Shown piece by piece: positions 45,402 to 48,540 of a DNA stretch of 64,000 bases. The translations under genes and the position numbers were made by a program. The stretch's first letter is position 1, and every line of letters starts with the position of its first letter. Source of the stretch: Halomicrobium urmianum (GTDB lineage Archaea; Halobacteriota; Halobacteria; Halobacteriales; Haloarculaceae). The DNA lies in NCBI RefSeq assembly GCF_020217425.1, contig NZ_CP084090.1, forward strand, positions 62,001 through 126,000, in the 5' to 3' direction. The notes under the pieces are model-generated. The model had not been told where the DNA came from, did no database searches, and saw only the letters and a list, made by a program, of their open reading frames with translations.

Positions 45402-46460
45402 TCAGACGTCGACGGAGAAGGGAGTGTGTTCGCCGGCGCGGGCAGCGAACGCAGCCAGCAGGTCCGCCGCGGCGTCCAGGTCGTCGGGATCGATCACTTC
45501 GACCGGCGTGTGCATGTACCGGTTGGGGAGGCCGAGGTTCAGCGAGGGGATGCCGCCGCGCGACGTGTAGAAGGCGTCAGCGTCGGTGCCCGTCCGGCTG
45601 CCGGTCGCCTGCAGCTGGACGTCGATGCCGGCGTCGTCGGCCGCGCCGCGGACGGCGTCGACGACGACGGGGTGGTTCGCGCTGCCGCGGGAGACCACCG
45701 GCCCGCCGCCGAGTTCGACCCCGGTCGAGCGCTTGCCCGGCGACTCGGGCTGGTCGGTCGCGTTGGTGACGTCGGTCGCGACGACGGCGTCGGGTTCGAG
45801 GTCGAACCCGACCATCCGCGCGCCCTGCAGGCCGACCTCCTCCTGGACCGTCGAGACGGCGACCACGGTCGCGTCCGTCCCGCGCTCGGCGGCCCGCCGC
45901 AGCCCCTCGGCCGCGGCCCAGATCCCGACCCGGTTGTCCATCCCGCGGGCCGCGAGCCGGCCGTTCTCCAGCTCCGAGAGGGTCTGGTCGAAGGTGATCG
46001 GATCGCCCCGGTCGACGAGTTCCTCGGCCTCGTCGCTGTCCTCCGCGCCGACGTCGACGTACAGTTCGTTGACGTCTGCGACCTCGTCCTCCGCCGGATC
46101 CCGCAGGTGAATGGCCGTCTGGCCGACGACGCCGGGGACGGTCCCGTCCGTCGTGTGAATCCGGACGTGCTGGCCCCGCGAGACGGTCCGGTCGGACCCG
46201 CCGATGCGCTCCAGTCGGACGAAGCCGTCGTCGGTAATATCCCGGACGATGAACCCGATCTCGTCGCCGTGGCCGGCCAGGGCGACCGTCGGCTCGCCGC
46301 CCTCCAGAACCGCGACGGCGTTGCCGTAGTCGTCGGTCCGGACCTCGTCGGCGAACTCGCTCACGTAGTCGATCCAGCGGCGCTGCCCCTCCGCCTCGAA
46401 CCCGGAGGGCGCCGCGGTCGTCAGTAGGTCCTCCAGAAACTCGCGTCGTCGCTCGTCCAT
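45402..46460 (-). CDS. M42-family metallo-aminopeptidase
   Basis: A 352-residue TET-like aminopeptidase. The metal ligands and catalytic acids are visible: AGHGDEIGF, MDNRVG, VQEEVGLQGA with the Glu pair, ATDVTN and YMHTPVE. M42 enzymes form large tetrahedral complexes that trim peptides released by the proteasome. Start ATG 46460 begins the fold immediately. Confidence 0.9.
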   Translation of the reverse strand: MDERRREFLEDLLTTAAPSGFEAEGQRRWIDYVSEFADEVRTDDYGNAVAVLEGGEPTVALAGHGDEIGFIVRDITDDGFVRLERIGGSDRTVSRGQHVRIHTTDGTVPGVVGQTAIHLRDPAEDEVADVNELYVDVGAEDSDEAEELVDRGDPITFDQTLSELENGRLAARGMDNRVGIWAAAEGLRRAAERGTDATVVAVSTVQEEVGLQGARMVGFDLEPDAVVATDVTNATDQPESPGKRSTGVELGGGPVVSRGSANHPVVVDAVRGAADDAGIDVQLQATGSRTGTDADAFYTSRGGIPSLNLGLPNRYMHTPVEVIDPDDLDAAADLLAAFAARAGEHTPFSVDV

Positions 46461-46587
46461 GTCCGCCGGTTACGCGTGCGCCGCCATGAAGCCCGCGGGT
46501 CCGCGGTCGGCGACGAGTAGTTGCCGACCGCGAGGCGGTACGATCGACGTCGATCCGGCCGACGTTCGCCCGGGCAAACCCTGGTAC

Positions 46588-46665
46588 AGTAGAAATTGAA
46601 CGCACTGACACACTCGAGGGGTACCCGGGGTGCCCCTCGATGTGTGAATAGTTTCAATTTCTACT
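46588..46665. mobile_element. 78-bp MITE-like element or large RNA hairpin
   Basis: 13-bp perfect terminal inverted repeats (AGTAGAAATTGAA at 46588-46600, TTCAATTTCTACT at 46653-46665) enclose a second dyad, CACAC-TCGAGGGG ... CCCCTCGA-TGTGTG, with a one-base bulge. The whole can fold into one long stem. AT-rich ends in a very GC-rich region suggest foreign origin. TA dinucleotides lie just outside each end (46585-46586 and 46667-46668), as in 2-bp TA target duplications. There is no transposase. It could equally be a small RNA hairpin. Confidence 0.5.
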
Positions 46666-46866
46666 ATAGGCATCTAACCCCGAACCAATGGGTCGTCGTA
46701 TCGAGGTAATAGATACCAATGCACTCGATTTCGCCCGCGAGGTCCCCGCAACCGGAGATACCCCTTAGTATTCGGCGCTTACGCGAACCGCGACAGCCGT
46801 CGCGGCCACGGCGGCCCAGTCGGACGCTGTGGCTTTAAAAGGGGCGCGCCATCGCCGCGCAGACGC

Positions 46867-46935: not shown

Positions 46936-48540
46936 ATGACTTTCGCGGGAAAGCCCGAAGGCGAGAGCGCAATGTCGAACGACAACGAGCAGACCGACGA
47001 CGGACGCTTCGCGGTCGATCGCCGCTCGATGCTCGCCCTGATGGGCGCCGGCGGCGCGTCGCTGGCGCTCACAGGGGGACTGGGGAGCGGCGCAGCACAG
47101 GTAGACGACGGCGGCGACGGAGGCGTCTCCGCCGACCGCTGCGAGGCCTGCATCGATCCCTACACGGGATATCTCGTACCCGGGAGCGCGGCCGCAGGGA
47201 CCGACGCCGGCGGCGCTGTCGACGACGAAACGAACGAGACGGCGACCGACGAATCGGACGGGCTGGCCGCCAACGAGACCGAGGACAACGAATCGGCCGT
47301 CGGCATCACCGACAACGAGACGGCCGACAACGCGACCGACACCGGCCTCGGCAACGAGACGGCCGACAACGCGACTGCCGGCGGCGCCATCGGCAACGAG
47401 ACGGCCGACAACGGAACGGGCGTCGGCCTCGGCGACGACGAGCCCGCAGACGTCGAGTCCGAGGACACGCCCGAGGGAGACGAGGACGGCGACGGCCTGG
47501 TCGAGCCCGGGTTCCTCGACAACGGTGACGACGCCGGCGACGGGAACCAGACCGGCGGCGGCGCGCAGGCGCCCGGCGCGTCCGACGACGACGAGTTCGA
47601 CCCCGCGGTCACCATCACGATGAACGTCGGCGACGCCGACGTCGTCTTCCCCGACGAGGAGGGCGACGCGGCCGACAACGAGACCGACGCTGGCCTCGGC
47701 AACGAGACCGAGGACAACGCGACCGATACCGGACTCGACAACGAGTCGGACAACGAGACGGACGTCGGTCTCGGCAACGAGACGGCCGACAACGAGACCG
47801 ACGGCGGCGCCATCGGCAACGAGACGTCCGACGACGAGTCGGACGGGCTACTGGGCAACGAGTCGGACAACGAGACCGACGGCGCGCTGAACGACACGAC
47901 CGACGAGCAGGCCGCAGCGTTCACCCAGCAGGAGCAGGAGGGCTTCCCGGACTTCTACTTCGACCCGGTCGGCGTCCGCGTGTCGCCCGGCGACGTCGTC
48001 GCCTTCCAGCCCCAGGAGGAGGTCCACACCGTCACGGCCTACAACCCGCGGTACTACGACCTGCCCCAGCGGATCCCCGAGGGCGCGCCGGGCTTCTCGT
48101 CGCCGCCGATCACCGCCGGCGACACCTGGTACTACCAGTTCGACGAGACCGGCGTCTACGACCTGTTCTGCCTGCCCCACGAGCAGTTCGGCATGGTCGT
48201 CCGCGTCGTCGTGATGGAGGAGGACGGCGAGGTCCCCGAGGGCTACGACACCGCCAGCGCGACGGACGGTGAGACCGACGACGGCCTCGGCAACGAGACC
48301 GAGGCCGGACTCGGCAACGAGACCGAGGACAACGAGACCGAGGCCGGACTCGGCAACGAGACTGACACCGGCACCGCGCAGGGCGGGAACGGCGTCGGGC
48401 CGGCGCAGGCCGGCGTCTCCGACATCGCCCTCAGCGTCTTCCAGTCGCCCGAGATGGAACCGGGGAACATCGCCGACCAGGGCGAGGTCGCCTGGACCGA
48501 CCTGACCGAGGTCGAATCCCAGCCCCCGGCCGGAGACTGA
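46936..48540 (+). CDS. Tat-exported cupredoxin (halocyanin-like) with sequon-rich linkers
   Basis: A 534-residue secreted blue-copper-like protein. The Tat signal is DRRSMLALMGAGGASLALTGG (about 29-49). The cupredoxin domain (about 335-435) has copper ligands His in VHTVTAYNP and Cys, His and Met in FCLPHEQFGM. On both sides of it lie GLGNETADNATD-type repeats with about 25 N-x-S/T sequons, a likely heavily glycosylated, acidic stalk. Halocyanins carry electrons outside the membrane. The start may be the ATG at 46936 or at 46972, and either keeps the Tat signal. No lipobox is present, so membrane attachment is unclear. Confidence 0.82.
   Translation: MTFAGKPEGESAMSNDNEQTDDGRFAVDRRSMLALMGAGGASLALTGGLGSGAAQVDDGGDGGVSADRCEACIDPYTGYLVPGSAAAGTDAGGAVDDETNETATDESDGLAANETEDNESAVGITDNETADNATDTGLGNETADNATAGGAIGNETADNGTGVGLGDDEPADVESEDTPEGDEDGDGLVEPGFLDNGDDAGDGNQTGGGAQAPGASDDDEFDPAVTITMNVGDADVVFPDEEGDAADNETDAGLGNETEDNATDTGLDNESDNETDVGLGNETADNETDGGAIGNETSDDESDGLLGNESDNETDGALNDTTDEQAAAFTQQEQEGFPDFYFDPVGVRVSPGDVVAFQPQEEVHTVTAYNPRYYDLPQRIPEGAPGFSSPPITAGDTWYYQFDETGVYDLFCLPHEQFGMVVRVVVMEEDGEVPEGYDTASATDGETDDGLGNETEAGLGNETEDNETEAGLGNETDTGTAQGGNGVGPAQAGVSDIALSVFQSPEMEPGNIADQGEVAWTDLTEVESQPPAGD

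Follow-up and report, generated by a model that had tools for sequence, protein, structure and literature searches.

In the 64,000-nucleotide stretch of the Halomicrobium urmianum genome that we analysed (hereafter the window), a palindromic element of 80 bp at positions 46587-46666 is very probably best explained as a non-autonomous miniature transposon (MITE) of the IS630 type. The initial annotation had suggested a MITE moved by a TA-target transposase, an idea now supported by the occurrence of the element at 113 or more places in the genome, by the duplication of a TA target and by ends like those of TA-target IS630 elements. Between genera its arms covary strongly, whereas copies within the host genome show hardly any covariation, which suggests, without proving it, that folding matters for transposition or arises during it.

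The segment originally described was 78 bp long (46588-46665) and bounded by perfect 13 bp inverted repeats, AGTAGAAATTGAA at the start and TTCAATTTCTACT at the end. Inspection of the sequence confirmed these repeats, the nested inner dyad and the TA on either side, and the contrast between AT-rich ends and a GC-rich context also held (window GC 0.70). A repeat search of the window placed the inverted-repeat arms at 46585-46612 and 46641-46668, and filled and empty insertion sites refined the mobile unit to 46587-46666 (consensus TAGTAGAAATTGAA ... TTCAATTTCTACTA). The terminal inverted repeat is one base longer per side in the consensus (14 bp), the window copy having C for T at 46587; with target bases included, 17-18 columns are paired at the ends. 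Sequence, repeat search and end scoring all delimited the outer arms, namely the a-end (46588-46600, plus strand), which resembles the right end of IS630 elements, and the b-end (46653-46665, minus strand), which resembles their left end. Further inside are the two sides of a conserved asymmetric internal loop (46601-46607 on the left and 46646-46652 on the right, alignment columns 18-24 and 63-69) and an inner stem defined by folds and covariation, with its 5' side at 46608-46623 on the plus strand, including a bulged C at 46613, and its 3' side at 46631-46645 on the minus strand.

The genome-wide search for further copies that had been proposed as a check found many of them. Fifty-five copies of the host genome were used to build a covariance model, which gave 150 matches representing at least 113 distinct places after removal of strand doubles (at least 83 on contig C1, at least nine on C2 and at least 21 on C3), a lower bound given that 150 candidates were scored. 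A nucleotide search of the same genome (4.25 Mb, six contigs) yielded at least 78 matches with the best 40 of 125 candidates scored, and the end pattern, allowing up to two mismatches, occurred 112 times in forward and 110 times in reverse orientation, against six and six for a reversed-pattern control. Copies were thus short, non-coding and numerous, and the core was exactly 78 bp in 57 of the 67 that could be aligned. Median divergence from the consensus was 6.4%, with one copy identical to it, and the family looks old in this genome since its copies have diverged by about 6%. The density of places on C3 (52.6 per Mb) was about twice that on C1 (24.7) and C2 (21.5).

The boundaries of the mobile unit came from a second repeat of the host genome, a palindrome of 77-78 bp (ACGGACTGTTGTAG...CTACAACAGTCCGT; among other places L237:1501-1577, L239 and L240; C1:2820889, 2724980 and 2775274), which was repeatedly targeted by the MITE at one base. 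Four MITE copies (L026, L042, L043 and L047) were found at this same base, three inserted one way and one in the opposite orientation. Empty copies of the second repeat read ...GT(T/C)GTAGC... with a single TA at the same base, and the four filled copies read ...GTTGTA[T AGTAG..CTACT A]TAGC..., one of them with GTCGTA, so that the element itself measures 80 bp. The duplicated target is therefore TA, in most cases preceded by C and followed by G, and both the target and its duplication are those of an IS630-type element. By analogy with these filled and empty copies we read the TA at 46585-46586 and the TA at 46667-46668, the latter followed by G as in the usual TAG, as the probable target duplication of the window copy. 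TA was present on the left in 57 of 67 copies, on the right in 57 of 67 and on both sides in 48; C preceded in 48 of the 67 and G followed in 50, with the full CTA..TAG in 25. IS630 elements prefer TA within CTAG. This tetranucleotide was rare in the window (positions 1-64000), with 12 occurrences observed and 178 expected from base composition.

At its locus in the window the MITE lies between two divergent genes. The minus-strand neighbour (45402-46460), which we take from its sequence to be an M42-type aminopeptidase, starts 126 bases from the MITE, and the plus-strand neighbour (46936-48540) encodes a putative secreted cupredoxin, named so from the initial annotation and the sequence, at the spacing of 271 bases that had been given for it. 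The peptidase gene was conserved in all six congeners searched, the intergenic part did not align and no empty site was seen there; a second locus (L012) had no orthologous site in the congeners, and we found no clean empty site at an orthologous locus of another species. One relative in genus g28 carried an unrelated 74 bp stretch at the corresponding place, and a comparison of plasmid flanks gave a left breakpoint only, near the element.

As judged from the ends, the MITE is likely moved by an IS630 transposase acting in trans, since its terminal TATAGTAG, its CTA/TAG target and the layout of its ends of about 29 bp recur in ISNma7-type IS630 elements of haloarchaea. Complete elements of this type also share the difference between left and right ends, their left end matching the b-end and their right end the a-end of the MITE. 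The common motif consists of TATAGTAG, four variable bases, a T, a run rich in G and A, and a sequence resembling (T)TRCNCAC. At positions 18-29 all 30 copies scored as an IS right end at the a-end, and 27 of them as an IS left end at the b-end; at positions 9-17 the MITE scored modestly above random against IS ends; positions 14-15 differ (TGAAA in the MITE, TAGAA in the IS), so that the match to an autonomous element is partial. Unlike the MITE, the ISNma7-type elements are about 1059 bp long, encode an IS630 transposase and have two ends that disagree at the four variable positions. Such TATAGTA-like ends were found about 1059 bp apart (1056-1062) in 31 of 33 IS630 loci examined, which comprised the 30 top-scoring loci of the survey and three of a further 20; of the other two, L149 had no such ends and L145 had been mis-paired by the script. 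In this second set of 20 loci, 17 showed no TATAGTA-like end pair. A sample transposase matched DDE_3 and the NCBIfam IS630 model in two overlapping frames. The annotated representative of the 1059 bp type is ISNma7 on Natrialba magadii pNMAG02, which also holds 14 MITE places. A transposase supplied in trans would bind the two ends of the MITE, cut it out and join it to a TA target, which would then be duplicated through repair.

Genes for IS630 transposases (PF13358) were present in 169 of 382 haloarchaeal genomes. None was detected at E<=0.001 in the host genome or in G025, the only other genome with relatives by nucleotide search, and none in G002, another genome carrying MITE copies; a transposase in the same genome is not a defining property of a non-autonomous element. 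In this species the gene has apparently been lost or was never resident, given the lack of a PF13358 match and the drift of its copies by about 6%. Among the 119 MITE-bearing genomes 68 had an IS630 element, compared with about 51 expected under independence in two slightly different genome samples and with relatedness uncontrolled; 51 of the 119 lay outside the IS630-positive set, again with the samples slightly different. The full transposon with the same ends that the initial annotation had proposed to look for was not found among the fetched loci of the host genome. Just one of these loci (L013) had two perfect ends at a distance of about 1 kb, and it was a MITE copy split by insertion and not an autonomous partner, and a lone end in L021 belonged to a truncated MITE copy. 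The insertion in L013 (L013:360-1193; C1, about 1088660-1089490) was of the DDE_Tnp_1 (IS4/IS5) type and had duplicated ACTAGTT on both sides. In the stretches of genomes G255 and G248 that contained 53 ends, no complete element with TGAAA-type subterminal sequence was seen at any of them; 48 of the 53 had a partner about 67 bp away, and by eye the other five belonged to split, truncated or mutated copies.

Relatives of the MITE were widespread among haloarchaea. With at most 11 candidates scored per genome, the covariance model detected them in 119 of the 391 haloarchaeal genomes searched, which belonged to 30 of 86 genera and included three of six congeners, and nearly all matches listed spanned exactly 86 bp with flanks included. 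Nucleotide search found relatives in two of 116 genomes, namely the host and G025, while the six congeners gave none. The family was further present in 48 haloarchaeal plasmid records, from Natrinema, Haloarcula, Natronorubrum, Halomontanus, Haloterrigena, Natrialba and others. In G255 it appears to have moved recently, as five of seven fetched copies were identical. No relatives were found in 50,697 phage records, and of the viral contigs 14 matched an end pattern, none of which continued as the element when checked by eye. Literature listings covering freely accessible papers showed no earlier description of this MITE family.

The whole segment had been described as folding into one long hairpin, and its fold was indeed far better than that of shuffled sequences. 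With 10-base flanks the RNA fold reached -49 kcal/mol compared with -24.0 +/- 3.25 for shuffles (z -7.7, none of 200 as good), and the DNA fold of the 86 bp form had a z of -9.8. Across genera (30 copies, one per genome) 93.5% of cells were paired, compared with 85.0% in shuffles, and 16 of 35 pairs showed double changes, compared with 8.9; the covariation score was 0.270 versus 0.107 (a value reached in none of 500 shuffles, with slid controls not exceeding 0.058), and both stems, including the inner one, covaried strongly. Among the 55 copies of the host genome, pairing hardly differed from that in shuffles (92.0% vs 91.8%, 92 of 500 as high), and covariation was slightly raised (15 of 500 shuffles as high for double-change cells and 24 of 500 for the score); a single column pair accounted for five of the 13 double-change cells. 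The asymmetric loop and the single bulged base persisted across genera, with G/G at columns 19/68 in 29 of 30. In our reading, the loop is the difference between left and right ends that the transposase needs. Within the outer arms, the four variable positions agreed between ends in 26 of 30 MITEs, with 13 distinct words, whereas they agreed in none of 26 IS elements (one of 31 when five ambiguous elements were restored by eye; Fisher p 4e-12, relatedness ignored). A likeness of AATTTCTACT to a Cas12a repeat was dropped, as the four variable positions on which it rests differ between subfamilies.

We read these patterns as arms that are kept alike in moving lineages and not in resting copies. 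A role of folding in transposition is suggested by the combination of stems that covary across genera, a loop and bulge that persist, IS ends that are not matched and resident copies that decay with little covariation. That the arms of moving lineages must stay complementary or are made so, the fold acting in or arising from transposition and not in a host role, we propose only tentatively. At 80 bp, the element may be too short for its ends to come together as double strands, in which case a hairpin, extruded or single-stranded, could bring them into contact; alternatively, a copying step during transposition could rewrite one arm from the other. The wider claim of a class-wide archaeal MITE lineage with the fold as part of its life cycle, in which only arm-paired copies with the fixed loop and bulge are mobile and residents decay freely, is more doubtful. 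A quite plausible alternative, though one we would stop short of calling probable, is an IS630-type MITE whose arms are equalised by blind copying, through template switching or arm-to-arm conversion, the fold itself being functionless. Double changes ran mostly from one Watson-Crick pair to another and columns 10-13 had only two unpaired cells in 120, as such copying would leave them, but it would also erase the loop and the bulge unless these were selected as transposase sites, and the resident copies of the host genome have not been corrected. It is rather unlikely that descent and transposase specificity alone account for the matching of the arms, with each subfamily having its own transposase that reads the four variable positions. 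Subfamilies do coexist with matched ends in G248, where by eye 19 of 23 pairs were identical among the matches listed and the other four were one base off, and the 30 copies had just 13 distinct four-base words. The disagreement of IS ends at these positions nevertheless makes them unlike a matched recognition site, and inner-stem pairs, which lie outside the end sequence, covary as well.

Explanations other than an IS630-type MITE seem far less probable. The initial annotation had raised a structured small RNA, and a structured non-coding or cis-acting RNA whose hairpin serves the host and was spread by duplication would agree with the stable fold and with the covariation between lineages, although the latter, seen in 30 sequences, is expected under the other explanations too. 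We consider it very unlikely: pairing showed no excess in the resident copies and their covariation was weak, no Rfam family matched the element in the eight sources scanned, the TA duplication and the IS630 ends remain unaccounted for, and many arm changes were between A-U and C-G, for which no G-U intermediate is possible. A single copy with compensatory changes in related genomes had been named as the outcome that would favour RNA over a MITE; the copies are many, in favour of the MITE, and compensatory changes do occur between subfamilies across genera, but hardly among residents. A REP/REPIN- or PATE-like element moved as a single strand by an IS200/IS605-type transposase would likewise be palindromic, short and present in many copies, yet it is extremely improbable, being contradicted by the TA duplication and by terminal inverted repeats in common with IS630, whereas PATEs have neither terminal inverted repeats nor target duplications (PMC3119063).

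For the IS630-type MITE the closest precedent, with the same presumed way of working, is the repeat unit of pneumococcus (RUP) with its partner IS630-Spn1. RUP is about 107 bp long, is present in about 108 copies, targets TA and has paired, folded ends resembling those of an IS630 element (PMC2229807 and PMC3049150). Both elements are thus short and multi-copy with a TA target, IS630-like ends and a paired fold; they differ in sequence and domain of life, and in that RUP occurs in pneumococcus and near relatives, whereas the haloarchaeal MITE occurs in 30 of 86 genera sampled and its arm covariation across genera was measured here. Correia/NEMIS and ERIC elements are likewise short with TA at their termini and have long stem-loop transcripts (PMC2229807 and PMC10969869); they differ from the MITE in sequence, in host and in their known roles in transcript processing. 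Among haloarchaea, the MITEs, PATEs and SMRs of Haloquadratum are non-coding with many copies, SMR HqIRS41 being about 80 bp, and SMRs are characterised by the absence of target duplication and by ends unlike any transposon (PMC3119063), neither of which applies to our element. Haloarchaeal MITEs as such were therefore already known from that source, and ours may be one of its five Haloquadratum MITE families; what is added here is a class-wide distribution, a fixed length and covarying arms. Haloarchaea hereby gain a widespread element comparable to RUP and Correia elements, for which a likely mover can be named, the ISNma7-type IS630, and a natural experiment on why many prokaryotic MITEs are near-perfect hairpins. 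As mobile lineages show covariation of the fold, residents hardly any constraint on it and full-length IS elements no such fold, it lends itself to testing as a feature of movement.

Some MITE copies overlapped with genes or open reading frames. At L204:2571-3245, L203:2570-4789 and L124:1571-2017 their 3' ends fell within the MITE copy at similar offsets, and the MITE end supplied TAG stop codons. Near a MITE copy, at L119:1639-1879, there was a match below gathering score to the Rfam family sot0042 (sense overlapping transcript).
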